The notes under the pieces: model-generated
What the model was told of the DNA's origin: nothing
The model's database searches: none
What the model saw: only the letters and a program-made list of their open reading frames with translations
Part shown: piece after piece, positions 3,042-19,566 of the stretch
Layout: each line of letters starts with the position of its first letter
How positions within the stretch are numbered: position 1 is the stretch's first letter
IMG/VR virus record: IMGVR_UViG_3300046535_000261
Coordinates: 1-21,108 of that record
DNA: 21,108 bases
Source of the DNA: a virus
Reading direction: 5' to 3' (one strand)
Made by a program: the position numbers and the translations under genes

Positions 3042-3962
3042 ATGTCGTCGACCATGTTGCAGCTTGTGCAGCAGGCTACCGGAGAATTGGGGCTTGCTGT
3101 GCCGTTCTCAGTTGCGGGCAATACAGCCCAAGACACGACGCAGCAGCTTGCGTTGCTCAACGCGGTCGGCTACGAATTGGTTCGTGAGCCTGCGTTCAAC
3201 TGGCAGGCTCTGACGACCGAATATCGCTTCACGAGCCAGTGGACGATCCAGACTGGCAACGTGACGAGCGGTTCTGCAGTTATCACGAATATCCCATCGA
3301 CGGCGGCCATTGTTGCTGGCACGTACATGGTGACCGGAAACGGCATCAATCAAGACACGTACGTGCAGTCGGTGGATTCGCCGACACAGGTGACAATGAG
3401 TCAGGCTGCCGCCGCGAGCGGGACTGGCGTAACGCTGACGTTCGCGCAGACCAAGTACGCATTCCCTGTGGACTATCAACGAATCATTGATCGCACGCAA
3501 TGGGATAAGTCGAAGCATTGGGAAATGCTCGGGCCGGAAAGTCCGCAGCAATGGCAATGGCTGAAGTCCGGTTACATCGCTACCGGCCCGCGTATCCGTT
3601 GGCGCATCCTCGGCAACACCTTCCAGATTTGGCCGGGCGTCAGCACATCGGAATATCTCGGCTTCGAGTATGTCTCGAAGTATTGGGTGACGGATGTCAG
3701 CGGAACGCCGAAAGGCTCGTTCACGAGCGACACCGACACATGCCAGTTTGACGACCGCCTGATGGTCGCAGGGCTGAAGCTCAAATACTTCGGCATCAAG
3801 GGCTTTGAGACGCAGATTTTGCAGGACGAATACGACGCGATTCTTTCATCGGTCAAGGGCGAAGAACAGGGCGCTCCGATGCTTTCATTCGCTCCGCGGC
3901 TGTCGAGCTACTTGCTCGGCCCCGAGAATATCCCGGACAGCTTTCCTACTACCGGTCCATAA
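3042..3962 (+). CDS. Head-tail adaptor (tail tubular A-like) protein with inserted beta domain
   Basis: A 306-residue protein placed directly before the tail nozzle gene, the usual site of the ring that joins portal to nozzle in short-tailed phages. The N-terminal 60 residues are helical (LQLVQQATGELGLAV, then LLNAVGYELVREPAFNW), as in tail tubular A/gp4-like adaptors that begin with a helix bundle. Residues about 68-136 look like an inserted beta-sandwich module of the kind seen in many phage structural proteins (GNVTSGSAVITNI, then GTYMVTGNGI, DSPTQVTMSQAAA and TGVTLTF). The main domain resumes at FPVDYQRIIDRTQWD and continues through FQIWPGVSTSEYLGFEYVSK to a helical C-terminus. AGAGG precedes the ATG, and the stop codon abuts the next start. 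The adaptor role is supported by order and architecture, not by a diagnostic motif. Confidence 0.68.
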   Translation: MSSTMLQLVQQATGELGLAVPFSVAGNTAQDTTQQLALLNAVGYELVREPAFNWQALTTEYRFTSQWTIQTGNVTSGSAVITNIPSTAAIVAGTYMVTGNGINQDTYVQSVDSPTQVTMSQAAAASGTGVTLTFAQTKYAFPVDYQRIIDRTQWDKSKHWEMLGPESPQQWQWLKSGYIATGPRIRWRILGNTFQIWPGVSTSEYLGFEYVSKYWVTDVSGTPKGSFTSDTDTCQFDDRLMVAGLKLKYFGIKGFETQILQDEYDAILSSVKGEEQGAPMLSFAPRLSSYLLGPENIPDSFPTTGP

Positions 3963-5543
3963 ATGACCAACATCACCGGCATTGCAGCAGCGGCCCAGCG
4001 CGCGCGCAGGCAGGCCCAAGGGCAGCGTTCGACTACCGTCAACGTGCCAGCCCCGATTGGCGGATGGAATGCGCGTGATTCTCTGGCTGAGATGCCGATT
4101 CAGGACGCGGTTTCGCTGACGAATTGGTTCCCGACGACATCTGACGTAATAGGTCGTATGGGCTTCACGAAATGGGCGACTGGCTTGCCAACGCAAGTCA
4201 ACACGATCATGACGTACAACCCCGCGGGCGGCACGGCAAAGATGTTCGCCGCGTCGGGTACTGCGGTCTATGACGTGACAGGCGGTGGTGCTGTCGGGGC
4301 ACCTGTGGTGTCCGGATTAAGCAACGACAAATGGGCGTACACGAACTTCGCCACGAGCGCCGGGCCATTTCTCGGCATGGTGAACGGGCAGGATGGCTAT
4401 TACGTCTATAACGGCACGACTTGGCAAAGCGTAACGGCTGTGTCTACGCCAATCTCGATCACCGCCGTTGATCCGACGACACTCAGCTTTATCACATCGT
4501 TCGCCCAGCGCGTCTGGTTCATCCAGAAGAACTCGCTCAACGCGGTCTATTTGCCCGTCAGCAGCGTCGGCGGTGCTGCGCAATTGTTTCCGCTGCAAGC
4601 TATATTTCGCCGCGGCGGCTCTCTCGTCTCGATGGGCGTATGGACTGTCGACGGCGGCTATGGGATGCAGGACAACCTGTGTTTTGTAACGTCTGAGGGC
4701 GAGGTTGCTGTTTATCAAGGAACCGACCCGTCTCAGGCTACTACCTTCTCACTGGTCGGTGTGTACCAGCTCGGCTCGCCAATGGGATTCCGATCATTCC
4801 TGAAGTACGGCGGCGACCTTCTCTATATCGGGAAAGATGGTCTAGGCCCGATCTCCGCATTGTTGGCTTCCACTCGGATTAATACCAACATCAATCTGAC
4901 GGGGAAGATTCAAGGCGCGATCTCGCAGGCAACGAGCCTTTACGCGAACAACTACGGATGGTGCATGGTTCTGTTTCCGCTGCAGAACATGATCATCCTT
5001 AACGTCCCGGTAGGGCTAGGCCAGCAGCAACAGTATGTGATGAACACCATCACCGGGGCTTGGTGCAATTTCACCGGTTGGAACGCGAATCACTGGGAAC
5101 GGTTTAACGATCAGATTTACTTCGGCAGCAATGGTTACGTCGGGCTGGCGTGGAACGGGTTCAGCGACAGCAGCCAGAATATCAATGCCATTGCGCAACA
5201 GGCCTTCAGTGAATTCGGCTCGCCATTGCAGAAGCGCTTCACAATGATGCGCCCGATCCTCTGGACGAATGGAGCGCCCGCTCTGGCGGCCGGCATCAAC
5301 GTCGATTACGACCAGAACATTCCGAATTCCACGTTGAGTTTCCTGCCGACGAGCTTCGGCATATGGGATACGGCGATTTGGGATTCCGACATTTGGGGCG
5401 GATCACTGCAGATTGCCAAAGCATGGCAAGGCGTTACTGGCGTCGGCATGACTGGATCGCCAACCCTCAAAGCGGCCATAAACGGCACAGAGACTCATTG
5501 GGCGGCCTCTGACATCGTGTTCGAGACTGGCTGGACCGTATGA
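3963..5543 (+). CDS. Tail nozzle / DNA-stabilisation protein (P22 gp10 / T7 gp12-like)
   Basis: A 526-residue beta-rich protein. After a basic 27-residue N-terminal tail comes VPAPIGGWNARDSLAEMPIQ (about 28-47), then LTNWFPTTSDVIGRMGF, a strong signature of the nozzle family that forms a beta-propeller hexamer at the tail tip and closes the DNA channel. Repeating strand-turn-strand blocks follow, including VNGQDGYYVYNG, WTVDGGYGMQDNL, VTSEGEVAVYQGTDP and NDQIYFGSNGYVGLAWNGF, consistent with propeller blades. Near the C-terminus, WDTAIWDSDIWGG is typical of this family. The length is within the range of short-tail nozzle proteins. The start follows the adaptor stop directly, and the end overlaps the acetyltransferase gene by four bases (ATGA), suggesting translational coupling. 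Function is confident at family level. Confidence 0.82.
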   Translation: MTNITGIAAAAQRARRQAQGQRSTTVNVPAPIGGWNARDSLAEMPIQDAVSLTNWFPTTSDVIGRMGFTKWATGLPTQVNTIMTYNPAGGTAKMFAASGTAVYDVTGGGAVGAPVVSGLSNDKWAYTNFATSAGPFLGMVNGQDGYYVYNGTTWQSVTAVSTPISITAVDPTTLSFITSFAQRVWFIQKNSLNAVYLPVSSVGGAAQLFPLQAIFRRGGSLVSMGVWTVDGGYGMQDNLCFVTSEGEVAVYQGTDPSQATTFSLVGVYQLGSPMGFRSFLKYGGDLLYIGKDGLGPISALLASTRINTNINLTGKIQGAISQATSLYANNYGWCMVLFPLQNMIILNVPVGLGQQQQYVMNTITGAWCNFTGWNANHWERFNDQIYFGSNGYVGLAWNGFSDSSQNINAIAQQAFSEFGSPLQKRFTMMRPILWTNGAPALAAGINVDYDQNIPNSTLSFLPTSFGIWDTAIWDSDIWGGSLQIAKAWQGVTGVGMTGSPTLKAAINGTETHWAASDIVFETGWTV

Positions 5544-5989
5544 AGCGAATTGTGTGGGATCAACCGGAGCGCGTCATGCGCTTCGTGGCTAGTCGCGTCG
5601 GTGAGAAGGAACTGTTCAATTACAGCGCCATCGGGCTGGAGAGAGACGGCGAACTGGTTGCGGGCGTTCTCTATGAACAGCACAACGGCCCGAACGTGAT
5701 GATGCACGTCGCATCGGATGGCTCGCGTCACTGGATGACGCCGGCCTACATGGCCGCGTGCTTTCGCTATCCATTCCTGCAACTCGGCGTAAATCGTGTG
5801 AGTGGTCTTGTCCGCGCAGATAACAAGGACGCGCAGCGATTCGACGAAGCATTGGGATTCAAGCCTGAAGGCGTATTACGGGAAGCCGCGGCAGACGGCG
5901 CCGATCTGATCCTGTACGGGATGCTCAAACGGGAGTGCAGGTATCTGGATGGCAAATACTTCGACGCGCTGCGCAAGGAAATGAAATGA
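5540..5989 (+). CDS. GNAT-family N-acetyltransferase
   Basis: A 149-residue protein with a GNAT acetyltransferase pattern. These enzymes transfer acetyl from acetyl-CoA to amines on proteins or small molecules. Early beta strands (FNYSAIGLERDGELVAGVLY) lead to the signature region at about 84-107 (VNRVSGLVRADNKDAQRF, then EALGF), where a conserved Asn and the helix before LGF bind CoA or shape the active site. The C-terminal strand LILYGMLKRE is also typical. It is embedded in the virion operon with four-base overlaps at both ends, so it is made with structural proteins. Phages of several groups carry such genes here; the substrate is unknown and could be a virion or host protein. The classical R/Q-x-x-G-x-G/A loop is not obvious, so catalytic activity is less certain than membership. 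Confidence 0.75.
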   Translation: MKRIVWDQPERVMRFVASRVGEKELFNYSAIGLERDGELVAGVLYEQHNGPNVMMHVASDGSRHWMTPAYMAACFRYPFLQLGVNRVSGLVRADNKDAQRFDEALGFKPEGVLREAAADGADLILYGMLKRECRYLDGKYFDALRKEMK

Positions 5990-7686
5990 ACGTCTTTAAG
6001 CTTCTAAAATACCTGCTCGTCGATGCATTTACATTGTATGGAGCCGGAAAAGGCGGTGGCGGATCGGCGCCGTCATATCCTGACCCGACGAAGGTAGCGC
6101 AGGCAACCACGCAAACAAATACGGACACGGCAGCCTATAACAAGGCGCTGAACCTGAACAACTATTCGAATGCGTTTGGTTCGCAGCAATCGACTCAGAC
6201 GGGCACTGATCCGACGACCGGCGCACCGATCTATAACACTCAGGTCAGCGCCAATCCGCAGCTTCAAAGCGCACTGAGTGGTCTTCTCGGGCAGGCCGGA
6301 AATAGCGGGCAGGTGAATCAAGATGCTCTCACCGGCCTTTATTCGCTGAATGGTCAATACAGCAATCTCGGTGGCCAGTTCTCGAATCTTGCGCAACAGC
6401 AGCTTGGCTTGAACCAGGGCATTAATGGCCTGCAAAGCCAGTATGGAAACATCAGCCAAGGGCTTAATGGGCTGAATGGCGCATATTCGAATCAATCTGG
6501 AGCGCTTGGCAGTCTGTCTTCGCAATACGGAAATCAAGCTGCGGCACTCGGCGGACTCGGTTCCCAGTATTCTAATCTTTCCAATGGCGTTGGCGCTCTT
6601 AACAATTCATATGGCGCCTTGAACAGCCAACTTTCCGGCCTCGGTTCACAGTTGGACCAAGGAGCGGCGAAGAACGCTCAGCAGCAGGGGCAGGATGCAG
6701 CCTACAAGGCTCAGACGCAATACCTCGATCCTCAATTCTCGCAGCAGGGCGAATCGCTCAGCGCGCAATTGGCAAACCAAGGGCTTACGCCGGGTTCGCA
6801 GGCATATAACAATGCCATGACGAACTTCAACAATACGAAGCAGCAGTCGTATAGCAACGCGCAGAATCAAGCGATCATGACCGGCTCGCAGCTAGGCGCG
6901 CAGAATTTGCAGAACCAGATTTCGGGCATTAATACGCAAGCAGGTCTGCTCGGCCAGCAGGGTTCGAACCTGATGAACTCGGCGAATCTGTATGGTCAGC
7001 AGGGGAACATGCTCGGCGCCCAAGCGGGCCTCATCGGCCAGCAAAGCGGCCTCACTGGTCAGCAAGCGGGGTTGATCGGACAGCAAGCGGGCATCACGGG
7101 CCAACAGGCGGGCTTGTACGGGCAGCAAGCGGGTATCACAGGGCAGCAAGCAGGATTGTATGGCCTGCAAGGCAATAACCTCGCTGGTGCAGGTTCGCTC
7201 TATGGTCAGCAGGGCAATACTTACGGCGCGCAGTCCGGATTGATGGGTCAGCTTTCCTCGAATGCGAACCTTCCATACTCGCAACTCGGGAGCATCGCGA
7301 GCTTGATGCCAGGATATTCTGGCACAGGTCAGAGCAGCGCGGCGCCAGCGGACATCTCCGGTCTCTACAACAATCAGTATCAGTCTCAACTTGCAGGTTA
7401 CAACGCAGGGCAGTCGAGTTCGAACAACATGATGAGCGGCCTATTCGGCCTCGGCTCGGCCGGCATCATGGGAATGATGATGTCCGACCGTCGCGCGAAA
7501 CGTTCCATCAAGCGCGTTGGGACGTGGGCGAATGGACTGGGCGTATACACCTACCGGTACATATGGGAGCCGAAGAACGTCCGGCATCTCGGGTTCATGG
7601 CAGACGAGGTGCGCAAGGTCGCGCCTCATGCGGTACGTCGTGGCGCCGATGGCTTCGATCGCGTCAACTACCAATTGGCGGCCTAA
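5986..7686 (+). CDS. Repeat-rich virion protein with C-terminal peptidase S74-like chaperone segment
   Basis: A 566-residue protein starting at the ATG at 5986, which overlaps the acetyltransferase stop as ATGA; in-frame codons upstream lie inside that gene. Residues 1-20 contain a hydrophobic stretch (VFKLLKYLLVDAFTLYGAG). Residues 125-222 are seven 14-residue units of the form YxN-x5-L-x-x-L. Residues about 346-394 are seven 7-residue units of the form QAGLxGQ. At the C-terminus, SDRRAK (Ser500, Lys505) then NGLGVYTYRY, HLGFMADEV and VNYQLA match the start of peptidase S74 domains. These trimerise fibres and cut themselves before the Ser of a Ser-x4-Lys pair. The segment is only 67 residues and lacks the usual long C-terminal helices. 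Gln/Asn/Ser/Gly-rich composition and location before ejection-type genes suggest a virion interior or tail protein; whether it is cleaved is unknown. Confidence 0.75.
   Translation: MNVFKLLKYLLVDAFTLYGAGKGGGGSAPSYPDPTKVAQATTQTNTDTAAYNKALNLNNYSNAFGSQQSTQTGTDPTTGAPIYNTQVSANPQLQSALSGLLGQAGNSGQVNQDALTGLYSLNGQYSNLGGQFSNLAQQQLGLNQGINGLQSQYGNISQGLNGLNGAYSNQSGALGSLSSQYGNQAAALGGLGSQYSNLSNGVGALNNSYGALNSQLSGLGSQLDQGAAKNAQQQGQDAAYKAQTQYLDPQFSQQGESLSAQLANQGLTPGSQAYNNAMTNFNNTKQQSYSNAQNQAIMTGSQLGAQNLQNQISGINTQAGLLGQQGSNLMNSANLYGQQGNMLGAQAGLIGQQSGLTGQQAGLIGQQAGITGQQAGLYGQQAGITGQQAGLYGLQGNNLAGAGSLYGQQGNTYGAQSGLMGQLSSNANLPYSQLGSIASLMPGYSGTGQSSAAPADISGLYNNQYQSQLAGYNAGQSSSNNMMSGLFGLGSAGIMGMMMSDRRAKRSIKRVGTWANGLGVYTYRYIWEPKNVRHLGFMADEVRKVAPHAVRRGADGFDRVNYQLAA
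6358..6651 (+). repeat. Seven tandem 42-bp units encoding a 14-residue repeat
   Basis: The coding units begin at 6358, 6400, 6442, 6484, 6526, 6568 and 6610. The last five start Y-G/S/A at every 14th residue (for example YSNQSGALGSLSSQ and YGNQAAALGGLGSQ), with Leu or Val at positions 9 and 12. The DNA is diverged, so the period is kept by protein structure rather than by recent duplication. The first two units are degenerate. Confidence 0.8.
7021..7167 (+). repeat. Seven tandem 21-bp units encoding a 7-residue QAGLxGQ repeat
   Basis: The units start at 7021, 7042, 7063, 7084, 7105, 7126 and 7147. Most begin CAAGCGGG and all encode Q-A/S-G-L/I-x-G-Q, with the last Q replaced by Leu in the final unit. 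The variable fifth position cycles through Ile, Thr and Tyr. The DNA is much more alike than in the 42-bp repeat, suggesting younger expansion by slippage or unequal recombination. Confidence 0.88.
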
Positions 7687-8784
7687 ATGGGCGTCTTCGG
7701 AAATACGCTCAGCGCTGGCAACCAAGATTCCCCGATTGGCGCTATCGGCGGGAAAATCCAGAAATGGACTGATCCTATTGCATGGATTCCCGGCGGTATC
7801 GGCGATAAGTGGGTAAACCTCACGTCGCACCAGATTCCGAAAATGACGAATCAGGTGCTTCAGCCGATTGCGCAGCCAATTAACAAAATGGATTCTGCGG
7901 TGAATCCATTGCGCAAGATTGGCATCGTCAACAACCTAGCGAACACGGCATATGCGAAGCCGGGCGATGCGATCGGGATTGGCATTGGCTCGGCATTCAC
8001 CGGTGGCGCATTAGGTGGCGCCTTGGGCGCAGCAGGAGGCAGCGGAGCGGGTGCAGCAGCCGGCGCAGGTGTTGGCGCTGCGGGCGCCGCTGATGCAGGT
8101 ATCGCCGGCGGTGCGGCCGCTGGCGGCGGCCTGTTCGGAGGCGGCGGCTTATCTGGTCTATTCGGCGCTGGTGGCTTGGGTGGCAGCACGACTGCCGGGA
8201 CTGCCTTAGGGACTGGTCTCGGAACAGATGCGGCCGCGACTGGTGGGATCACGGGCGGTGCTGGCGGCTTGACTGGCTTATTCAGCGGTCCTGCGGCATT
8301 CGGCGATGCAGGTTTGACTGGTACTGTCTCGGCAGGCGGTTCTGGACTTGGCGGCGCAATGGCCGGCGATATGGGCGGCGCTCTCGGGTCATCGCCTACC
8401 GGTCTGTTTAGCGGCTTGCTTCCAGGTGGCGGAATGAGCGGCACGGCCAGCGGCGCGCTTGGCGGTGGCCTATCTGGCGCGTCCGCAGGAGGTTCGTCAA
8501 TCGGCGGCGCATCTATGGGCGGTCTACTGAATAACGGAACCTTCATGAACATGGCCCAGCAGATGTTGAGCCAGCAGAGCAAGAATAACCAGCAGCAGTC
8601 GCAGCAGAATCAACAGGCGGCGAACCGCAGCAATTTCACGCCGAGTAACGCTGCGCTGATGAACTACGCAATGGCACAACAGAACGTGGCGAATACGCAA
8701 TCGCTTCAGCAAAACCTCGCGCGCGATCAGCAGCGTCGACAAGCACTTGCACAGGCTTTGAATCAGGGGAACATCTATGGCTAG
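7687..8784 (+). CDS. Gly/Ala-rich ejection-type internal virion protein
   Basis: A 365-residue protein starting directly after the previous stop. The N-terminal ~90 residues look globular (WTDPIAWIPGGIGDKW, VNPLRKIGIVNNLANTAYAK). Residues about 95-275 are extremely Gly/Ala-rich with periodic GLFGG, GLSGLFG and GLTGLFSG patches. That composition suits a flexible, membrane-inserting or glycine-zipper-like segment. The last ~80 residues are Gln-rich and helical (QQMLSQQSKNNQQQSQQNQQ). This three-part layout between the nozzle and the other large virion genes resembles the small ejection protein of short-tailed phages, which leaves the capsid with the DNA and helps build a channel across the cell envelope. 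The eight-base overlap with the next gene supports coupled translation. Function is inferred; there is no enzymatic motif. Confidence 0.6.
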   Translation: MGVFGNTLSAGNQDSPIGAIGGKIQKWTDPIAWIPGGIGDKWVNLTSHQIPKMTNQVLQPIAQPINKMDSAVNPLRKIGIVNNLANTAYAKPGDAIGIGIGSAFTGGALGGALGAAGGSGAGAAAGAGVGAAGAADAGIAGGAAAGGGLFGGGGLSGLFGAGGLGGSTTAGTALGTGLGTDAAATGGITGGAGGLTGLFSGPAAFGDAGLTGTVSAGGSGLGGAMAGDMGGALGSSPTGLFSGLLPGGGMSGTASGALGGGLSGASAGGSSIGGASMGGLLNNGTFMNMAQQMLSQQSKNNQQQSQQNQQAANRSNFTPSNAALMNYAMAQQNVANTQSLQQNLARDQQRRQALAQALNQGNIYG

Positions 8785-10717
8785 CGCAGCAATGCCGGGA
8801 ATGACGATCCTCCCGCAGTTTCAGGGGAGCGCATATCAGCTTCAGCAGCAGCAAGCGCTGGCGCAAGCTCTGATGCAGCAATCGTTTCAGCCGCAGAACA
8901 CGCAGGCTGTCGGTTCGGGCCAATACTCGATCGTTCCGAAATACAGCGCAGTCGGCGGTCTTGCGCAACTTGGTCAGGCGCTGATGGCTGCGAAGATGCA
9001 GCAAAACGTCGCGCAGGGATATAACCAGCTTGGTCAGAATCAATGGGCTGCTCTTACTGGTTCACCTCCTGCATCGTCTGGCACTGGCGGCGCTTCGGAT
9101 GGCTCAAGTGACTCGTCGAGCGCGAATCCGCAAGCGCTTGCCAGCGCGCTTGGTAGCAGCGGATCAACGGCGCCTGCACAAACTGCTGCCCCGCAGCAGA
9201 GCGGAGGATTGCTTTCCCCAGGTGGCCCGTTGAATCCTAATGGTATTCCGACGAATGCCGCAGCAATGATGTATATGTCACCGGAAGGACAAAAGGAACT
9301 GTTCAAGTCGGTCGCGGCAGGATATGCGCCGACCGCAGCGACGCTTCAGGCTCGGCAGGGCGGCTTCGACTCGGCGAAGGCAAATCAAGCTCAGTTCCAA
9401 AAAGATAGCTATATCGCGCCGACTACCGGTACCGGCATTATGCGCAATCCGTTCACTCAACAGCCGGTCGCATTCAATCCGGCGATCCCTGATGGCTCGA
9501 CACCCCTTTTCGACGCATCTGGCAACGTCGCCAAGGTGCAGCCCATTCAAGGCGCTCAAGGAGTCATGCAGGGCAACGCCGCTGCAACTGCGGCTGGTGG
9601 CGCACAATTCAAGCCGGTTCAAGTGTTCAATCCGGCGACGAACCAGATGGAATACTCGAACGAGGCAGCGGTCACGAATCCGACTGCGCCGGCTCCGGTC
9701 CGCAACAACAACCCTGGCGCGATGATGCCGGGTGGCAAGCTTGCGCAATATCCGGACATGCAAACGGGCTTGGCTGCTCTCGATGGTAACCTCGCGAGCT
9801 ACGGTAAGCAGGGCGTCAACACGATTTCCGGTGTGATCTCGAAATGGGCTCCTCCGAACGAGAACGACACGCAGGCGTATATCAAGGACGTTTCGCAACG
9901 CCTCGGAATTCCGGCGAACCAGAAGATTGACCTAACGAATCCGCTTCAGCGTCAGGCATTGTCGACGGCGATCGCGCTGCACGAGAACGGTCCAAGCGGA
10001 GTCTTCGGTAGTGGCACGGCGACTGCGCCTCAATCTGGTCGACCTGCTGCGAGTGCTCCGATGGGCGCGCAGGTCAATGCGGAAAAAGGTGCTGGCAATC
10101 TTCAGGACGAGTTGTCGAAGAAGTGGACTGATCTGAGCAATCAAAACGTTCAGGCTCAGTCGACGATCTCATACCTTCAAAATATCAAAGGCCTCGCTTC
10201 GAAAGCTGCTGTCGGGCCGATGGCGGATCGACTCAATTTCGTCAATGGCTTGCTCTCGATGGCCGGGCCCAACGCAAAATCAATCGCTGGGAGTGATCGG
10301 GCAGTCGACGCGGTTACGGCAAATAACCTGCTCGACAAGTACTCGAATCAGATCACGGCGCGTCTCAGCGCGAACGGGATGAGCACGGATTCGGCTAGAT
10401 CGATTCTGCAATCGGCCTATCCGAATTCCAAAATGAATCAGGCAGCTATCAATGAGGCGGCCGATAACCTGATCGGAGCCCAGCAGATGACACAGGCGAA
10501 GACGCGACTTCTTACGCCACTGGCGAACGCTCGAAACCCGACTGACTACAATAATGCGGAAATGAAGTTCGACCAGAACGCCGACCCTCGAATTTTCCAA
10601 TACGCGAACATTCAAGACCCGACGCAGCGCCAAGCATTCGCGCAGAAGTTGATCAAGCAAGACCCGAATATCGTTCAGAAGATCAAGAATCTCGAAGCGA
10701 TGGGAGCGATGCAATGA
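8777..10717 (+). CDS. Ejection-type virion protein with transglycosylase-like domain
   Basis: A 646-residue protein. The first ~120 residues are Gln/Ala-rich helix (YQLQQQQALAQALMQQSFQ), and a Ser/Gly/Pro linker follows. Residues 309-405 form a recognisable domain: RNNNPGAMMPGG, then MQTGLAALDGNLASYGKQG, NTISGVISKWAPPNENDTQA, YIKDVSQRLGIP and IALHENG. The same block occurs in lysozyme-like virion proteins, where it is thought to open peptidoglycan locally during DNA entry. The glutamates in PPNEND and HENG are candidate catalytic residues, but I cannot tell which acts. The remaining ~240 residues are helical (LQDELSKKWTDLSNQ, AGSDRAVDAVTANNLLDKYS). GGGGA lies before the ATG, and the gene overlaps both neighbours. 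It probably enters the periplasm with the other ejection proteins. The domain call is moderate; ejection is inferred from context. Confidence 0.7.
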   Translation: MASAAMPGMTILPQFQGSAYQLQQQQALAQALMQQSFQPQNTQAVGSGQYSIVPKYSAVGGLAQLGQALMAAKMQQNVAQGYNQLGQNQWAALTGSPPASSGTGGASDGSSDSSSANPQALASALGSSGSTAPAQTAAPQQSGGLLSPGGPLNPNGIPTNAAAMMYMSPEGQKELFKSVAAGYAPTAATLQARQGGFDSAKANQAQFQKDSYIAPTTGTGIMRNPFTQQPVAFNPAIPDGSTPLFDASGNVAKVQPIQGAQGVMQGNAAATAAGGAQFKPVQVFNPATNQMEYSNEAAVTNPTAPAPVRNNNPGAMMPGGKLAQYPDMQTGLAALDGNLASYGKQGVNTISGVISKWAPPNENDTQAYIKDVSQRLGIPANQKIDLTNPLQRQALSTAIALHENGPSGVFGSGTATAPQSGRPAASAPMGAQVNAEKGAGNLQDELSKKWTDLSNQNVQAQSTISYLQNIKGLASKAAVGPMADRLNFVNGLLSMAGPNAKSIAGSDRAVDAVTANNLLDKYSNQITARLSANGMSTDSARSILQSAYPNSKMNQAAINEAADNLIGAQQMTQAKTRLLTPLANARNPTDYNNAEMKFDQNADPRIFQYANIQDPTQRQAFAQKLIKQDPNIVQKIKNLEAMGAMQ

Positions 10718-12837
10718 CGAGTCTCGCGGATCAGTTCGCAGCGGATGCAGGTCCCGCGCCGGCTGCAGGTCCCGCGCCGGCTGCACCGTCTCTCTCGGCT
10801 CAGTTCGTTTCAGATGCGCAAGCGGCGCCCGCTCCTGCAAAACCTGCCGCGGCGGCGCCGTCGACATGGGATCAGTTCGGCCGTCAACTAGGATTGACTG
10901 CGCGCGCTGGTGTTACTGGCGTTACATCACTTCCGGCTATGGTAGGAGATGCAGCGAACGCCGGCATCAATAAGGTTTTCGGAACGAATCTCGCGCCTGT
11001 ATCAGCAACCATTCAGGCATTGGAAGACAAAGCAGGACTTCCGCAACCTCAGAATGCGACGGAGCGCATTGTACAGAATGCTACGAGCGCGATGGCTGGC
11101 GTCAGTCCGACAGTTGGTATTGGTCGCGCGATGGCCGGCGCAGCATCGCCTACTGCGCAAGCACTGAGCACGGCACTTCAGGCCACTCCGGGAGCGCAGA
11201 TGCTTGGTTCTGCCGGCTCTGGAGCGGGGTCTACCGGCGCGCAGGAACTTGGCCTAGGACCTGGCTGGCAGATTGCAGGCGGAGTTCTCGGTGGAACTGG
11301 TGGCGTGCTTGCCGGTTCTGCTGCAACGTCCGGAGCACGCGCTCTCTCGAATGCGCTCACTCCCGCGCCGAAATTGACGCCTGCCGCTGCCGCTGCTCGT
11401 GCAGATGCAGGCGTTGATCAGGCGATTCAAGAACTTGGCCCGCAAGCACAACAGACTTATCAGCCTGTTCAGCCTCAGTCTCAGCCGGTTCCCGTTCAGA
11501 ACCCGGCGATGGTCGGCCCTCCGTCTCCTCCTACACCGTCTCCGGTTCGTGGCGCTCCGAATACATTCCAACCGCTTAAGCAGCAGGTCGCGCAAGTCAT
11601 CGAACAAAATCCGAGCGTTGACGCCGCTGCGGCAATGCGCGCGCAGGACTTCCGAAACCTCGGGATGCAGCCGCTACTAGGCCAGATCACGCGCGATCCG
11701 AACCAGTTCGCGCAAGAATTGAACATGCGCGGCGTTTCTGGCGTCGGTAGCCCGATTGCGACTCGGCTTAATCAGCAAAACACTCAGCTTCAGACGGCGC
11801 TCCATGGTCTGGCGGGTAATCCTTCAGATACGTATCAAGCAGGCTCTGCGATCAAGAATTCGCTCCAATCCATCGACAACGATCTATCGAGCCAAGTAAG
11901 CGGTGCATACCAAGCAGCGAAGGCATCTAGCGGCAAGAACCTGGACGTTCCGCTTACCGGTCTAGCTCAGGATTACGCGCAAGTCTTGAACGATTTCGGG
12001 GACAAGGTTCCGAGCGGCGTTCGCAACAACTTCAATCAGCTTGGGTTGATGGGCGGGACTCAGCAGAAGACATTCTCGATCGAGAACGCCGAGAACTTGC
12101 TGAAGGTCATCAACGCGAATTCAAGCAATGATCCAGCTACAAATGCTGCATTGGCACAACTCCGCGGGAGCGTGAAGAATGCCATTCTCTCGGCTGATGA
12201 TCAAGGCGGCGTCTATGCTCAAGCTCGTCAGTTGGCGGCGCAACGGTTCGCACTACATGAGCAGATTCCGGCTCTAGAAGCGAGCGCGAACAACAGCATC
12301 AATCCTGACGACTTCGTTCGAAAGTACATCATCGGCGGAAAGACGGACCAGGTCGCGCCTCTTGCTGCATTGTTGCAACAACAGGCCCCCTCTGCTTTCC
12401 AGGAAGCCCGTAACCAGATCGGCGCTCAGCTTGCTCTCAAGGGATTCGGACAGAACGTAGCAGGTGATGCGCCGTTCAAGCCTGCCGGGTTCGCACAGCA
12501 GATGCAGGCATTCGGCCCGCAAAAGCTCGCCGCGTTCTACTCGCCGGACGAAATCAACCAACTCAACACGATCGGCCGGGTGGGTTCGTACATGAACGCA
12601 TTCCCATCGTCGGCGCCGGTCAATACATCGAATACGGCATCTGCTCTCGCTTCTATTGTCGGCGCTGGCGTGAAGAAAATTCCGTATGTCGGCGGACTCA
12701 TCGACAACATGCAGAACCGGACATTTGTGAACAAAGCGCTTGCGGCATCGCTTAGCAATGCGCAAAGCCCGTCAGTACCGGTTGATCCGCGTCTCCTTGC
12801 TGATGCCCTTTCGAAGTTCACGCCACCGGCGAAATGA
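10714..12837 (+). CDS. Large ejection-type internal virion protein
   Basis: A 707-residue protein, the last of the virion operon, overlapping its upstream neighbour by ATGA. Its N-terminus carries two copies of a short motif (SLADQFAADA and SLSAQFVSDA) separated by Ala/Pro-rich linker. Next comes TWDQFGRQLGLTARAGVTGV, a start common in phage virion proteins ejected into the cell. Around residues 185-215 is a Gly-rich hydrophobic stretch (GWQIAGGVLGGTGGVLAG) that could insert in a membrane. The C-terminal half is helical (DDFVRKYIIGGKTDQVAPLA, KLAAFYSPDEINQLNTIGRV). This matches the largest of three ejection proteins in P22/epsilon15-type phages by order, size and composition. A transcription terminator follows at 12931. 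No catalytic motif was found. Confidence 0.65.
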   Translation: MTSLADQFAADAGPAPAAGPAPAAPSLSAQFVSDAQAAPAPAKPAAAAPSTWDQFGRQLGLTARAGVTGVTSLPAMVGDAANAGINKVFGTNLAPVSATIQALEDKAGLPQPQNATERIVQNATSAMAGVSPTVGIGRAMAGAASPTAQALSTALQATPGAQMLGSAGSGAGSTGAQELGLGPGWQIAGGVLGGTGGVLAGSAATSGARALSNALTPAPKLTPAAAAARADAGVDQAIQELGPQAQQTYQPVQPQSQPVPVQNPAMVGPPSPPTPSPVRGAPNTFQPLKQQVAQVIEQNPSVDAAAAMRAQDFRNLGMQPLLGQITRDPNQFAQELNMRGVSGVGSPIATRLNQQNTQLQTALHGLAGNPSDTYQAGSAIKNSLQSIDNDLSSQVSGAYQAAKASSGKNLDVPLTGLAQDYAQVLNDFGDKVPSGVRNNFNQLGLMGGTQQKTFSIENAENLLKVINANSSNDPATNAALAQLRGSVKNAILSADDQGGVYAQARQLAAQRFALHEQIPALEASANNSINPDDFVRKYIIGGKTDQVAPLAALLQQQAPSAFQEARNQIGAQLALKGFGQNVAGDAPFKPAGFAQQMQAFGPQKLAAFYSPDEINQLNTIGRVGSYMNAFPSSAPVNTSNTASALASIVGAGVKKIPYVGGLIDNMQNRTFVNKALAASLSNAQSPSVPVDPRLLADALSKFTPPAK
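10747..10782 (+). repeat. Perfect 18-bp tandem duplication
   Basis: Two identical copies of GCAGGTCCCGCGCCGGCT (10747-10764 and 10765-10782) encode AGPAPA twice in the linker near the N-terminus of the large ejection protein. In-frame perfect duplication suggests recent slippage and likely length variation between related phages. Confidence 0.9.
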
Positions 12838-12957: not shown

Positions 12958-13572
12958 TTAGGCAGCTTTCTTTTGAAGGTAGCGTTCGGCCGCCATCATA
13001 CTGCGACAGGTCAGGCAGCCGCGACCGGTTTTCACGAAATAGGTGTTTTCTTCGGTGTATTCGTGGCCCCTCTTGCAATGCGTTCTGGCGCGACGCATTT
13101 TTGCAGCAGCTTCTATCGCCAATTTCATATGGTTATGGTCTCGCGGAAGGCGCATGACGGTAAGCGCCTCCTCTAAAGGAATTCCGTTAGCAATGCGCTT
13201 CATGATGACATCGCCTCCGCGAAGTCCCAAACCATGCGCCCATTGCGTCGCGGTTTTGGTTACGCCGTTGAAAGTGATTCGGATATTGGTTCGGCGATTG
13301 TTGCCTTGATCTTTCATCGTCGCCCAAATGCAGTTGCCAGGCCCGTATGCGAGGTTGTTGTCTTTCCTTTCAAGTGTCATTCCGTCAGGTCTCGGACCCA
13401 TATCAGAGACGAAGTTTCTGAACCCGATCCCGCGCGGCATAAGCCATCGATCACAGACCGTGATGCCTCGTCCGCCGTACGAGTGGTAAGCGGCGTTGGT
13501 CTTGCAGTAACACCGTTTTTTCATTGAAGCATAGAGCCAATAGTCAGGATGCTCTTGGGCTTTGAATTCCAT
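12958..13572 (-). CDS. HNH-type homing endonuclease with zinc-finger-like C-terminus
   Basis: A 204-residue phage nuclease-family protein on the strand opposite to its neighbours. The core is at about 11-90: YWLYASMKKRCYCKTNAAYH, then YGGRGITVCDRW, F-x-x-F-VSDMGPRPDGMTLERKD and GNCIWATMKDQGNNRR. This pattern is seen in a widespread group of HNH/AP2-associated phage endonucleases. Residues 99-140 (ITFNGVTKTATQWAHGLGLR, then GIPLEEALTV) resemble the small DNA-binding repeat that accompanies them. Residues 166-189 hold a CKRGH-x15-C-x2-C cluster (Cys166, His170, Cys186, Cys189) that could bind zinc. The start has AAGGAG eight bases before the ATG, the best ribosome site in this part of the window. 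It interrupts the virion operon just after its terminator, consistent with insertion of a mobile endonuclease where damage is least. Confidence 0.8.
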   Translation of the reverse strand: MEFKAQEHPDYWLYASMKKRCYCKTNAAYHSYGGRGITVCDRWLMPRGIGFRNFVSDMGPRPDGMTLERKDNNLAYGPGNCIWATMKDQGNNRRTNIRITFNGVTKTATQWAHGLGLRGGDVIMKRIANGIPLEEALTVMRLPRDHNHMKLAIEAAAKMRRARTHCKRGHEYTEENTYFVKTGRGCLTCRSMMAAERYLQKKAA

Positions 13573-13629: not shown

Positions 13630-15177
13630 GTGCCATTTAACGGAAGCGGCATTTTTTCTCTGGCAAGCGGAAACCCTGTTGTGACAGGGACTACGATTTC
13701 CTCGACAGTTCAGAACAACACCATGTCTGACATCGCAAACAATGGCCTCACGAATTGTTTGACCAAGGACGGCCAGCAGACGCCGACCGCAAATATTCCG
13801 CTTGGTGGCTTCAGGATCACTACCCTTGGCAACGGTACGGCGCTGACTGATGCTGCCAATTTAAGCCAAATCCAGAACAACGGCGCGACGGTCCTCGGTT
13901 CAATAAGCGGGACCGGCGATGCGATCGTCGCGGCTTCGGCTCCTTCGATTACTGCGTATACCACCGGTCAGACGTTCATCTACACGCCTACGTCGACAAA
14001 CACGGTAACGAATCCGACGATCAACATTTCTGCGGTCGGCGCCAAGACAATTACACAATCAAACGGCCTTGGTCTGTGGTCCGGCGCACTGGCTGTCGGA
14101 ACTCCATATCAGTTGTACTACGACGGCACGAATTTCCGCGTGCAATCGGGGCAACTCGCGCAGGGCATTCCGTATTATCAGAGCCGAACAAGCCATCGGA
14201 ATTTACTCACTGATGGTAATTTCGATTATTGGCGCAGCGGGACGAGTTTTTCTATCGGTGCCGGTCTGTTTCAGTACACCGCAGACATGTGGATATGCGG
14301 CGCTGGTGGCGGGTCTGGCGCTTGCACGATCACACAGAATTCGTTTAATCCAGGCGCCGAACCGTCAGGGATGACGACTCCGGTTATTGGCTTCATGAAG
14401 TTCGCCCAAACTTCCAACGCCGTCACAAACCCGTTTATCTCTCAACACATTGAGGGCGTTCGCACTCTCGACGGACGCACGGCTACGTTTTCCTGCTGGC
14501 TCTGGGTCGATTCCGGGACCATCACGATCCCGACCGTTGCAACGGTGCAGTTATTCGGGGCAGGCGGAAGTGGCACAGTTACCACCAATACAACTGCCGG
14601 ATGGGTCGTTACCACAACTCCGACGCGATTCTCTCTGTCTCTCGCGATTCCATCGATCAGCGGAAAGACGATTGGCACATCTGGCGATTTCTTGGCGGTT
14701 CAGTTCTTGTTGCCAGTGAGTGCCACGTTCAACCTCAATACGACGCAATGGCAGCTTGAAGATAGTCCAGCAAACGCTCCAGCAGCCGGCCTTCCAACTC
14801 CCTATGAATGGAGAGGCTATGACGCCGAACTTGCTCGCGTCAATCGATATGTTCAGGTTCTGTCGAATACTTCTGTCTTCTCGTTGCAGGTATTAGGTTC
14901 TGGCGTATACACGACAACTACTAACTTTGTTGCTCTTATACCGCTCATTAACACGATGCGCATTCAGCCTGTCATCACATTCCTCAGCGGTTCGGCAACT
15001 TCCCTCATTGTGGGGGGTTCGTCATCATTGAGCGTTACGGCTCTTGCATTAGCAACGTCTGCATCATCCAACGTGCAGCTATTTTTGAACTGCACGGTAG
15101 CCGGCGCAACAGCAGGACAGGGCGGCGTTCTTAGGTCAAACACCGGCAACCTACTTATTGCAGATGCACGTTTATAA
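13630..15177 (+). CDS. Tail fibre / receptor-binding protein
   Basis: A 515-residue protein starting at GTG (13630), with an AGAGGG ribosome site upstream. Residues 1-70 (MPFNGSGIFSLASGNPVVTG then NIPLGGFRITTLGNG) are typical of the virion-attachment end of short-tailed phage fibres. Residues about 95-175 form a beta-rich shaft. Residues 190-380 resemble the jelly-roll, carbohydrate-binding-like module found in many fibres: RNLLTDGNFDYWRSG, YTADMWICG, QHIEGVRTLDGRTATFSCWL, LPSI-like IPSISGKTIG and TQWQLEDSP. TPYEWRGYDAELARVNRY follows, as in fibres with that module. The final ~100 residues are a beta-rich tip of unknown fold that may set receptor specificity. It has its own downstream terminator and a small companion gene. 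No lyase or hydrolase motif is visible, so binding rather than cutting is more likely. Confidence 0.82.
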   Translation: MPFNGSGIFSLASGNPVVTGTTISSTVQNNTMSDIANNGLTNCLTKDGQQTPTANIPLGGFRITTLGNGTALTDAANLSQIQNNGATVLGSISGTGDAIVAASAPSITAYTTGQTFIYTPTSTNTVTNPTINISAVGAKTITQSNGLGLWSGALAVGTPYQLYYDGTNFRVQSGQLAQGIPYYQSRTSHRNLLTDGNFDYWRSGTSFSIGAGLFQYTADMWICGAGGGSGACTITQNSFNPGAEPSGMTTPVIGFMKFAQTSNAVTNPFISQHIEGVRTLDGRTATFSCWLWVDSGTITIPTVATVQLFGAGGSGTVTTNTTAGWVVTTTPTRFSLSLAIPSISGKTIGTSGDFLAVQFLLPVSATFNLNTTQWQLEDSPANAPAAGLPTPYEWRGYDAELARVNRYVQVLSNTSVFSLQVLGSGVYTTTTNFVALIPLINTMRIQPVITFLSGSATSLIVGGSSSLSVTALALATSASSNVQLFLNCTVAGATAGQGGVLRSNTGNLLIADARL

Positions 15178-16754: not shown

Positions 16755-17287
16755 TGGCTCGCTATGTCATCGCCACGGTAGCGCAGTTGCTTTTCACCTA
16801 TCTGATAGCGGTTCCATTCGCGCCGGTCATCGCTATTTTTTGCAAGGATGATGGCTATCTTCCGAACTGGCTTGCATGGTTCCAGACCTTCGACGCGCCG
16901 CTTGATGCAGGCTGGCGCGATGGGTACTTCCAGCCCGCAGACGCGCCTGCGCCGATCGGATGGGAGAAATGGTGGCTTCGTACCCGCTGGCTGTGGCGAA
17001 ACCCAGCATACGGTTTCTGCTATTGGCCGCTCGGCTTGCCCTACGATCCAAGCAAATGGGTTGTCGACTTGCTGACCTACGACGGCGCGACGCTCACCGA
17101 GTTCAAGGCACATACGGCCGACGGCAAGTATTTCTGCCACACGAACAGCAGTGGCCTAAAACTAGGCTACAAGCTCTGGTGGGCGCTCGACGCAAACTGG
17201 AAGCTCATCGACAAGCTTCCGGCATCGCGCGGTCCTGACAACCGCCTGCCGATCTGTTTCACGCCGAAATTCACATCATCGAGCTGA
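16754..17287 (+). CDS. Trp-rich membrane-associated phage protein of unknown function
   Basis: A 177-residue protein starting at the ATG at 16754, which overlaps the holin-like stop; a TTG one codon upstream is less likely because GGGGG is better placed for the ATG. Residues 1-29 (ARYVIATVAQLLFTYLIAVP then FAPVIAIF) form a strong hydrophobic helix, either a membrane anchor or an uncleaved signal. The rest is soluble and unusually rich in Trp and Tyr (WEKWWLRTRWLWRNPAYGF, YKLWWALDANWKLIDKLP), with three Cys. It is the last gene of the lysis operon. Similar proteins exist beside lysis genes of Burkholderiales phages, but I know of no proven role. It could assist lysis or alter the cell surface. 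The 3' end overlaps the convergent lipoprotein gene by 17 nt. Confidence 0.72.
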   Translation: MARYVIATVAQLLFTYLIAVPFAPVIAIFCKDDGYLPNWLAWFQTFDAPLDAGWRDGYFQPADAPAPIGWEKWWLRTRWLWRNPAYGFCYWPLGLPYDPSKWVVDLLTYDGATLTEFKAHTADGKYFCHTNSSGLKLGYKLWWALDANWKLIDKLPASRGPDNRLPICFTPKFTSSS

Positions 17288-17981
17288 CAAGTTGTCGAAT
17301 CTGCGCGGCCTCGTTCTCTGCCTTGATCTTGTAGAGCGTGTCGTTCGGATGCACGCAGTCGACAAGCATCGATTGCCAGTTCGGCAGAGATGAAACGTAA
17401 TCGTATTGCTTGATCAGAAATACGCCTTTCTGATTGGCTACGTCGACCATGATGGCTCGGTAGTCAGGTAGGTTTGTATGATTCGCCGCGCAGGAAGGGT
17501 TCGCTTCCTCAAGAACAGGCGTCTTCCCAGCTTGGCGTACCGTATCGATCCATGAAATCAGATTCGCTCGATATGCGTCTGTCGTCATAAGGCGCGAATC
17601 GTTCATCATGTAATCTGCAAGAACGATTTGAGCGTTGCTTTTTGAGAGCCGAGTGGCGAACGGCGTCCCGTAATTCGGCGCGCCAGTCAGCGAATCAGCC
17701 GCAGTAGCGCCTGGCACAGCCTTGTTGTTCACAATCACATTTCCGCTTATATTCGCTTGCAGCGTCGCCTGCAATACGACTGGCGGATTGTTCACGCTTT
17801 GGATCAGAACGCCGTTCTGCGTCCCGACATATCCCCATATCAGGGAATCTCCTTCTGCGTCGATCACGACCGTTTTCTTCACGGTTTGAACCGGCGCGCC
17901 TGAACCTTCCGGTCCTCCTCCGCCGCCGCCACATCCGAAAAGTGTTCCTGTGACTGCGAGCGCTGCAACGGTTCCCCTCAT
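17271..17981 (-). CDS. SGNH/GDSL-type acyl-hydrolase lipoprotein
   Basis: A 236-residue predicted lipoprotein, probably attached to the outer membrane. The ATG at 17981 is chosen because AGGGGAG precedes it and a short lipoprotein signal follows (MRGTVAALAVTGTLFGC, with Cys17 as lipidation site and Gly at +2, then six Gly). Upstream in-frame codons lack a ribosome site. Catalytic blocks of SGNH hydrolases are present: GDS at 44-46 with Ser46 as nucleophile, an MMNDS block with the Asn, and DCVH with Asp208 and His211 completing the triad. Such enzymes remove acyl or acetyl groups from lipids, sugars or cell-wall components; the substrate here is unknown. It stands alone, opposite the lysis operon and beside the integrase, as expected for a lysogenic-conversion gene. 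A lysis-time role at the outer membrane is an alternative. Confidence 0.82.
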   Translation of the reverse strand: MRGTVAALAVTGTLFGCGGGGGGPEGSGAPVQTVKKTVVIDAEGDSLIWGYVGTQNGVLIQSVNNPPVVLQATLQANISGNVIVNNKAVPGATAADSLTGAPNYGTPFATRLSKSNAQIVLADYMMNDSRLMTTDAYRANLISWIDTVRQAGKTPVLEEANPSCAANHTNLPDYRAIMVDVANQKGVFLIKQYDYVSSLPNWQSMLVDCVHPNDTLYKIKAENEAAQIRQLVSSMM

Positions 17982-18086
17982 TTCGTGCTCCCCTCTGTTT
18001 GCGGTTGTGTCCGGCGCTTTGCGCGGGAATAGTACTCGATTGATCGGCGGTTTGTTTGCCAATGGCTTTCTCCGTTTGAAACCATC

Positions 18087-18118
18087 ACGTAACTTATTGA
18101 TTTCATTAGGACGTAACT
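18087..18118. repeat. Direct repeat ACGTAACT, two copies 24 bp apart
   Basis: ACGTAACT occurs at 18087-18094 and again at 18111-18118. The spacing is a little over two DNA turns, so both copies face roughly the same side of the helix, as expected for paired protein sites such as integrase arms or a repressor. This is suggestive only. Confidence 0.4.
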
Positions 18119-18124
18119 CCCCGT

Positions 18125-18151
18125 TTTTGACCATTTTGAGAACGGTCAAAA
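18125..18151. promoter_or_regulatory. Operator-like palindrome TTTTGACC-N11-GGTCAAAA
   Basis: Eight-base arms at 18125-18132 and 18144-18151 are perfect inverted copies with an 11-bp centre. The symmetry suits a dimeric DNA-binding protein, and TTGACC at each end resembles a -35 box, although no good -10 box was found at the right distance on either strand. It lies upstream of the lipoprotein gene and downstream of int, so it might control the lipoprotein or belong to attP. Confidence 0.45.
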
Positions 18152-18218
18152 CCAACGACAACGCGTTGAATTTGTTACGAAAAACGTTGTTTCAAGCGAC
18201 GTGCTGCGCATGCATGAA

Positions 18219-18283: not shown

Positions 18284-19369
18284 TCAAGCGGCATTTATGC
18301 GCACTCTGATCGGCTCGATACCTCGGTTATCGGCATACAGCGCGGCCGTCGCCTCGGTTGAATGTCCGAGAAGCGCCTTCGTATCGACGCCACCCTGTTC
18401 CATATAGAGCCGCTTCGACAGGCTTCGAATTTCATGGAACGAAGGCGCGTTCTCGTCTGGAATTCCGGCCCGTCTACGAGCTTCCGCGAATGACAGGCTG
18501 ATCGTCTGGAGGTTTATCGGCGCGCCTCGCTTGATCGATCCTCGGTTCTGAACGTGGTGAATCAGATATTGACTCAGCACATCGGCCGACTTGCAGCGCG
18601 CGATGACATCGGCGAGCGACATGCCTATTGCATCCATCCGAAGCGCGACAGGAATCGCGATCCAGCGCTGCGTCTTCTTGCGCATCACGACCGCCTCGCC
18701 ATCCTTCACCGAGCTGCGAGGCCATGCCGCGACGGTAGACCGGTCCTGTCCAGATACCAGCGCGAGAAGCATCGTATTGGCGAGCCAAGGCGCGACGGCC
18801 GGCGCCTCCTTCAAGATGGCGTTGAACTGTTCCAGCGTCAGGCGCTTTCGCTTAACCTTCGTGCGCACTTCCTCCGTCACGCTGGCCGGGTTCTTGTCTA
18901 TCCAACCCAGCGCGAGGCCCTTCGAGAACAACGCAATCATCCGCGAGCGGATCGCCTGCGCCCATCGTTGCTTGCCCCGCGCCTTGATTTCCTCCAATAC
19001 TTCCGATACGTCCCGCGTCGTCACGGTCGAGCAATCTTTCCCGCCAAGTTTCCCGCTGATCACTTTGTCATAGTCAGAGCGAGCGCGGATCGTGTTGGGC
19101 TTCAGGTCTTCCGTCGGCATGCGCTTGATGAGATCAGCGACAGTCCTATTTGATGCCTCCAAGCGCTCGGCGAGGCTTCGTGATGACTTCGCGTTCTCCA
19201 CGATCATGTTCGCTTCCTGCGCCTCGTGGATCGCCTGCGCGAGCGTCATGCGCCCGAGCACATGCGTCTTCCCGTCGCGCGGATCGCGCCAAACAAAATA
19301 GCCAGGGCGCGGCTCGTGCATGTTTGCCGGCCAGTTGGCGCGGCGGCGGATTCTAGGTCTGGCGGCCAT
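18284..19369 (-). CDS. int: Lambda-type tyrosine integrase
   Basis: A 361-residue site-specific recombinase that integrates and excises the phage at attachment sites. The chosen start at 19369 gives MAARPRIRRRANWPANMHEP then GYFVWRDPRDGKTHVLGRM, the classical arm-binding N-terminus of lambda integrase relatives (lambda Int is 356 residues). Longer in-frame starts add 35 unrelated residues that overlap the excisionase gene. The SAM-like core-binding domain is around 75-165. Catalytic residues are present: Arg210 (GQDRSTV), Lys231/232 (MRKKTQ), His312 and Arg315 (FHEIRSLSKR), His336 (LLGHSTE) and Tyr345 (ALYADNRG). The His336-to-Tyr345 spacing equals that in lambda. The gene starts in a one-base overlap with the excisionase stop (TAATG), so translation is probably coupled. 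The 3' end is beside the repeat-rich candidate attP. Confidence 0.94.
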   Translation of the reverse strand: MAARPRIRRRANWPANMHEPRPGYFVWRDPRDGKTHVLGRMTLAQAIHEAQEANMIVENAKSSRSLAERLEASNRTVADLIKRMPTEDLKPNTIRARSDYDKVISGKLGGKDCSTVTTRDVSEVLEEIKARGKQRWAQAIRSRMIALFSKGLALGWIDKNPASVTEEVRTKVKRKRLTLEQFNAILKEAPAVAPWLANTMLLALVSGQDRSTVAAWPRSSVKDGEAVVMRKKTQRWIAIPVALRMDAIGMSLADVIARCKSADVLSQYLIHHVQNRGSIKRGAPINLQTISLSFAEARRRAGIPDENAPSFHEIRSLSKRLYMEQGGVDTKALLGHSTEATAALYADNRGIEPIRVRINAA

Positions 19370-19566
19370 TATTTTTGTATGCGCTGGGCCAATGACGGCC
19401 GGGTTGATCGGTCCTGAAACGTGGCGTTCTGATCGACATAGTACGCTCGCCCGACCTTCACGGGCGGCGGCCATATCTTGCCGTCACGAATCCAGATGCG
19501 CGCGGTGCGGATGGCGGGCGCCGGCTCGAATTGGCGTTTCAGCCATTCGTCGAGTCTGAGTTTCAT
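19369..19566 (-). CDS. xis: Excisionase-like DNA-binding protein
   Basis: A 65-residue basic protein just upstream of the integrase. MKLRLDEWLKRQF begins a helix, and the middle reads WIRDGKIWPPPVKVGRAYYV. This is the winged-helix wing and recognition pattern of phage excisionases, in which I-x-PPPVKVGR and a following Tyr are characteristic. Excisionases bend attP/attR DNA and turn the integrase reaction towards excision. Its coding order (xis before int) and its TAATG junction with int match lambda-type modules. A strong ribosome site (GGAGG) lies in the 3' end of the preceding gene, whose stop directly abuts this ATG. The call is based on motif and context; no other family fits better. Confidence 0.86.
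   Translation of the reverse strand: MKLRLDEWLKRQFEPAPAIRTARIWIRDGKIWPPPVKVGRAYYVDQNATFQDRSTRPSLAQRIQK

Follow-up and report, generated by a model that had tools for sequence, protein, structure and literature searches.

What kind of virion protein joins two repeat arrays to a short peptidase S74 segment, and what would such a protein do among the ejection-type genes of a phage? The question is raised by an open reading frame at positions 5986–7686 (+), encoding 566 amino acids, in a window that comprises the whole analysed stretch of viral DNA, 21,108 nucleotides in length. The original prediction, made before the present analysis, had read the product as a trimeric, autoprocessed repeat filament. 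In podophages, the first ejection proteins are small, have little ordered structure and are poorly understood. What emerges from the present analysis is an ejection-slot virion protein that is predicted to form a hairpin of matched heptads and bears a minimal, probably removable S74 tail; the S74 part of the earlier reading was retained and the trimeric filament was given up.

Gene neighbourhood and family of the protein

The major head protein (335–1339) and an HNH endonuclease that has a helix-turn-helix at one end and whose gene (1407–1868, +) interrupts the head genes are followed by an adaptor-type tail protein (3042–3962, +; matched weakly, under the Pfam cut-off, to the SU10 adaptor), a protein in the position of P22 gp10 that is annotated as 'neck protein' in RHph_I3_18 (3963–5543, +), and a GNAT-type acyltransferase in the position of P22 gp14 (5540–5989, +). 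Downstream of the 566-aa protein lie a Gly/Ala-rich protein without a family match (7687–8784, +), a protein of ejection type that matches lytic enzymes of head/tail injection (8777–10717, +), and a gene without a family match placed by synteny in the P22 gp16 position (10714–12837, +). A 204-aa ORF between the ejection and tail fibre genes (12958–13572, −) has no Pfam match and looks like another mobile HNH-type gene. The tail fibre (13630–15177, +) and a lysozyme (from 15731) come next. A GDSL-type lipase/acylhydrolase with a lipoprotein-like start, located near the integrase (17271–18161, −), is a candidate lysogeny gene. The tyrosine integrase (18284–19474, −) and the excisionase (19369–19566, −) indicate that the phage is temperate. 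The search for closely similar DNA found no near phage relative.

The gene order parallels that of P22 (gp4–gp10–gp26–gp14–gp7–gp20–gp16), and the gene at 5986–7686, which follows the gp14-like gene and opens the ejection block, therefore holds the gp7 slot. Homology of the 566-aa protein to P22 gp7 was sought with hhalign, using both single sequences and profiles, and was not found (0.2–0.5%, no better than the reversed control), and for this reason we call it a gp7-slot protein and not gp7. Short S74-tailed proteins occupy the same slot in Rhizobium phages, Pseudomonas phage PAE2, Pseudoalteromonas phage H6/1, where the gene is annotated as 'putative ejection protein', and EBPR phages. The placement of an S74 segment at ejection-type genes was correctly recognized in the original prediction, but it is not unusual, since the tail recurs in this slot in many phages. 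The S74-tailed protein of PAE2 is a true homologue of P22 gp7 (hhalign 95.9%, E 6e-9; reversed control 0.9%): P22 gp7 ends in GLLGSLF, and the PAE2 protein continues with GLGLYALL immediately followed by SDRRMK. Two other gp7 homologues, MN850588 (L344) and NC_047862 (L345), have seven extra residues after the conserved motif EATGGLGSTAT in comparison to P22 gp7; to judge from these sequences, gp7 perhaps also changes by heptads.

The PHROG 6121 profile ('virion structural protein') matched the whole 566-aa protein with an E-value of 5e-68, and in the homologue L066 residues 35–411 aligned to positions 3–388 of the 392 in the profile. The profile thus extends over most of the protein, which was assigned to this family. 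The sole Pfam domain present is Peptidase_S74. Based on the open reading frame, Pfam and PHROG 6121, the gene encodes a body, predicted to be a heptad hairpin, and a C-terminal S74 segment; all the parts described below lie on the + strand. The MNxFKxLK start is shared with most of the close relatives. A short, basic and hydrophobic leader (aa ~1–20; 5986–6045) precedes a KGGGG stretch, and it is followed by a conserved N-terminal block (aa 21–106; 6046–6303), running from NKALNLNN to GAPIY and including invariant alignment columns.

Repeat arrays and matched arm lengths

Both kinds of repeat unit named in the original prediction are real. Units of 14 residues, of the type xxGLNGLxSQYGN, extend from about residue 125 to residue 223, and the units of seven residues (AGLIGQQ, SGLTGQQ, AGLIGQQ, AGITGQQ, AGLYGQQ, AGITGQQ, AGLYGLQ) agree with the 42-nt/21-nt array detected by TRF at 7021–7171. 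The view of them as separate arrays of counted units did not hold, as the repeats run beyond these units and appear to make up two arms of one structure. The N-arm (aa 107–245; 6304–6720) is formed by the 14-residue, two-heptad repeats. Two of its heptad positions, spaced 3/4, are 75 and 79% hydrophobic and make up a canonical a/d seam, and the period-7 register of its hydrophobic residues gave a statistic of 75, where shuffled sequences reached no more than 25. The C-arm (aa 305–429; 6898–7272) is formed by seven-residue GQQAGLY repeats and includes no charged residues. Its hydrophobic register gave a statistic of 65 (shuffle maximum 28), and its glutamines, forming a stripe, are strictly in register (73, shuffle maximum 24). 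Between the arms lies a core (aa 246–304; 6721–6897) extending from YLDPQ to TGSQLG.

Arm lengths were compared among relatives collected from IMG/VR, first 31 and later more. The arms were delimited by four anchors, GAPIY at the end of the N-terminal block, YLxPQ and xGSQxG in the core, and PYS at the start of the C-terminal linker, and the homologues measured were those bearing the anchors, selected by these and not by length. The N-arm was longer than the C-arm by exactly 38 residues in all 50 distinct anchor-bearing homologues, each with a core of 59 aa. The arms fell into 14 length classes, from 64/26 to 176/138 residues, with all steps multiples of seven, and random re-pairing of the arms produced on average 5 and at most 15 matches out of 50. 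In a tree constructed of the conserved blocks only, with the arms excluded (a quick tree with many open forks), the number of heptads changes at least 26 times, every time matched between the arms. With the rule fixed in advance, eight of the nine new close homologues in a held-out set also had a difference of exactly 38. The ninth, L179, breaks the rule, having lost a heptad from the C-arm and changed its N-arm by one residue. Equal gains and losses of heptads in both arms around a fixed core, our working principle, thus describe all the 50 homologues and all but one of those held out.

L026 was rejected as an exception to the offset of 38, its GGGPSY being a false anchor. More distant subfamilies have other offsets between the arms, ranging from 36 to 51. 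In the freshwater-type clade L093–L113 the arms correlate with r = 0.98, which is mostly one protein's doing, and because the rule is not exact there, no claim of matched arms is made for this clade. The proteins of these distant relatives measure 650–984 aa, and their C-side bears long repeats of Gln, Asn and Ala. Symmetric indels in a heptad-type ejection protein were not found in the literature on such proteins, within the incomplete coverage of the search.

The two arrays are predicted, from the matched lengths and from structure modelling, to be the arms of one antiparallel helical hairpin within a single chain; they would pair in opposite directions, because only in that way are separate arrays held to equal length. 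The heptad is the unit of alpha-helical coiled coils, and a precedent for such matched arms is known in chemoreceptors. AlphaFold2 placed helices at 132–222, 225–264 and 272–399 of the 566-aa protein and a turn, QGLTPGS, at 265–271 inside the core (6778–6798), with a mean pLDDT of only 52 and a pTM of 0.26. For the short homologue L066 the tip reached a pLDDT of 84–93 with the same turn. The sequence by itself points to the same place: residue 268, halfway between Ser107 and Pro430 as the conserved ends of the arms, falls within the turn. The top matches of a structural aligner were chemoreceptor and SMC hairpins (Z ~12), which represent a shared arrangement and not kinship, and Foldseek with the short model gave no significant match (best E 0.34). 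The iSH2, SMC and MCP matches were accordingly rejected as relatives, the S74 part lying outside both lists, and matches to NCBIfam SMC models and to reovirus sigma-1 were set aside as coiled-coil composition. By arithmetic on the predicted hairpin, a stalk of ~161 residues per arm would measure ~24 nm at 0.1485 nm per residue, and the predicted stalks of the relatives range from about 9 to 26 nm. The lengths of the three downstream genes showed no scaling with arm length.

The short S74 segment and its likely removal

The C-arm is followed by a conserved linker (7273–7482), PYSxLxSIAS...YNNQYQSQLA, with a Gly-rich hydrophobic end, GLFGLGSAGIMGMMM, where S74-less homologues terminate, and then by the Peptidase_S74 segment (aa 500–566; 7483–7683), modelled with a pLDDT of 85–94 in L066. 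The likeness of the C-terminal block to S74 domains, suggested in the original prediction, was confirmed by a full-length PF13884 match at 500–551 (model positions 1–58 of 58; score 36.4 bits, cut-off 22), as was the dyad formed by the nucleophile Ser500 (codon 7483–7485) and, five residues on, Lys505 (codon 7498–7500). The 67 residues from Ser500 to the end of the protein had been considered unusually few for such a domain. They are indeed about half of the solved domains of ~130 residues, but they cover the Pfam model completely, with a few residues to spare. A profile of short S74 domains matched long-tail-fibre, T5-type, MYRF and GA-1 fibre/appendage structures (6f45, 7dc3, 3gud), covering of 3gud only the first ~65 of 129 residues. 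The segment has neither the C-terminal trimerising helix nor the ~130-residue length of a full-length fibre chaperone. In the S74 domains of MYRF and endoNF the Ser and Lys are essential, and MYRF trimerisation is driven by the C-terminal helix of the domain (PMC8326128). In the window the tail fibre is a separate gene that lacks S74.

In the homologues with S74, the Ser lies 71 residues past PYS in 30 out of 36 (range 69–73), and 12 of the 14 homologues without S74 end 70–73 residues past PYS. The two exceptions are L078, cut by the contig end, and L075, fused to another C-terminus. In L075 (gene at 4563–6260) an Ala/Gly-rich C-terminal extension of about 200 residues stands in place of S74. 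The presence of S74 changes at least six times on the conserved-block tree. Among ~90 distinct S74 tails, analyzed with a profile from which the first eight columns were left out to keep it unbiased, the nucleophile is only Ser or Cys and the Lys is kept, while the adjacent positions vary freely. Cases with any other nucleophile were rejected as alignment slips, with the S one residue earlier, or as misalignment (L159). A pattern count leaving the nucleophile position free found 83 Ser and 13 Cys in 96 tails, with five changes on the tree. The natural Ser-to-Cys tails, CDPRxK with the Lys kept (L302, L307, L310, L317–L319, L321, L323, L325, L331, L332, L335 and L336), represent a possible Cys-type S74 group.

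Cys as the sole substitute is the pattern expected of a nucleophile, and cleavage is therefore likely. Self-removal of the S74 tail, already proposed in the original prediction, is likely because the S74-less relatives end at the cut point, stopping 0–2 residues from the predicted position, and because the nucleophile is restricted to Ser and Cys. The mature C-terminus of the 566-aa protein is predicted from the alignment to be the Gly-rich hydrophobic end of the linker, GLFGLGSAGIMGMMM.

Proposed arrangement, alternatives and known systems

The reading that we favour, with moderate confidence, is that of a gp7-slot ejection-type protein built as an antiparallel, heptad-paired hairpin with an S74 segment that most likely removes itself, and probably forming a rod or tube on the DNA exit path. 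Among the virion proteins of a temperate phage with a short tail, it would be the first of the ejection type, in the gene-7 slot. The 14-residue array (about 107–232) would run outward to the turn QGLTPGS and the seven-residue array would run back, the arms pairing heptad against heptad, so that a change in one arm would need a match in the other. A seam of hydrophobic residues would run along the stalk, which would also have a face rich in glutamine and free of charge. Several stalks would probably align into a rod or tube that follows the path of DNA exit, with the S74 segment and the two chain termini at the base, opposite the turn. The S74 segment would most likely remove itself between Met499 and Ser500 by a Ser-Lys mechanism, after assembly or folding, and leave a body ending in the Gly-rich hydrophobic segment, the end that relatives without S74 are born with. 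Computation shows the matched heptad indels, the predicted hairpin, the S74 membership, the nucleophile limited to Ser and Cys and the coinciding C-termini; from these we infer that the protein is present in the virion, is ejected, forms an oligomer, functions as a tube and is actually cleaved. By analogy to phiX174 H, the glutamine stripe and the charge-free C-arm support, short of proof, a role along the DNA path. Counting against the model are the absence of detectable similarity to gp7, the low pLDDT and pTM of the full-protein model, the rule breaker L179 and the other offsets of the more distant subfamilies, an S74 segment that lacks the usual trimerising helix, and downstream gene lengths unlinked to the arms. 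We suggest further, and only tentatively, that a length-tunable, nearly charge-free, glutamine-striped hairpin with matched heptads fits the DNA-delivery path through the host envelope and carries a minimal self-trimming S74 with natural Cys versions.

A trimeric parallel repeat fibre, its folding guided by an S74 chaperone as in tail spikes, is very improbable. Solved S74 domains are trimeric and located at fibre ends, as in the long-tail-fibre, T5-type, GA-1 and MYRF matches, but a parallel fibre does not require locked arm lengths, and here the arms co-vary in heptad steps. Furthermore, AlphaFold2 produced helices and a turn, an antiparallel hairpin and not a beta-fibre; the S74 segment is without the trimerising helix, and the tail fibre is encoded elsewhere. 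Neutral growth of low-complexity repeats by replication slippage, without structural meaning, would account for arrays that are tandem and variable in length. It is already contradicted by the matched lengths and retains practically no probability, since two different, separate arrays change identically each time, where independent pairing yields ~5 and at most 15 matches in 50.

The hairpin might also be a static internal piece, such as a portal-channel plug, a core or a head-packaging organiser, that is not ejected and has a length following portal or head geometry. We consider this unlikely, as both P22 and relatives with annotation have ejection proteins in this slot and PAE2 has a gp7 homologue with a matching S74 tail. 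These observations have to be weighed against the filing of PHROG 6121 under head and packaging, the suggestion (PMC8402733) that the portal channel would be occupied by P22 gp7, and arm lengths unlinked to the other ejection genes. Also rather unlikely, finally, is an S74 segment that is an inert or docking tail: it might have been added behind a C-terminus that was already there and never have cut, and its size of about half the known domains, its missing trimerising helix and its at least six losses or gains speak for this. Speaking against it are the ~90 distinct tails, which keep the Lys and only Ser or Cys as the nucleophile among freely varying neighbours.

With the matched-heptad hairpin as the preferred reading, the natural series of relatives, with stalks of ~9 to 26 nm that step by whole heptads matched between the arms, is a ready-made ruler experiment, and the series fixes the fold from sequence alone; the relation of stalk length to periplasm, portal or conduit becomes a testable question. 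The S74 module extends beyond trimeric tail spikes and includes internal helical proteins, where it has a minimal form of ~60–75 residues, and natural variants with Cys in place of the nucleophile Ser are revealed.

Among the closest known systems are the PHROG 6121 proteins, for example of the Rhizobium phages RHph_N2 and RHph_I3_18, which match the whole protein, occupy the slot after the GNAT gene and have a similarly short S74 tail. They have only a minimal hairpin, with a body of about 257–267 aa before S74, whereas long matched arms characterize the clade of the window protein. The P22 gp7 family (PHROG 598) is alike in its slot between gp14-like and gp20/gp16-like genes and in its Gly-rich hydrophobic C-terminus. 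Mature P22 gp7 starts with Lys-Gly-Gly-Lys-Gly (PMC8402733), the host OpdA removing the leader, and the leader before KGG in the window protein is a resemblance only. P22 gp7, in contrast, has 229 aa, lacks heptad arms and shows no detectable sequence homology.

The MCP chemoreceptors, the best structural match (Z 12), share the antiparallel helical hairpin with symmetric heptad length classes; in chemoreceptors the tip of the hairpin is conserved, and the classes differ by indels of seven residues placed symmetrically about it (PMC5907407). The window protein is instead a Gln/Gly/Asn-rich, nearly charge-free phage virion protein without signalling, and the Pfam search of its 566 aa found no MCP signalling domain, only S74. 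The phiX174 H protein forms an alpha-helical DNA tube of ~17 nm, built of heptads with inward Gln, Asn and Arg (PMC7354561). The likeness consists of amide-rich heptads in an alpha-helical DNA-delivery structure, for the window protein a putative tube; H differs in being a decamer, in which each subunit contributes one long helix, and in its unrelated sequence. The S74 domains of endosialidase, T5 pb1, the GA-1 appendage and MYRF share PF13884 and the Ser-Lys dyad five residues apart. In comparison to these, the segment in the window has 67 instead of ~130 residues, is without the trimerising helix and is attached to a helical hairpin and not to a beta-fibre, and some of its relatives have Cys in place of Ser.
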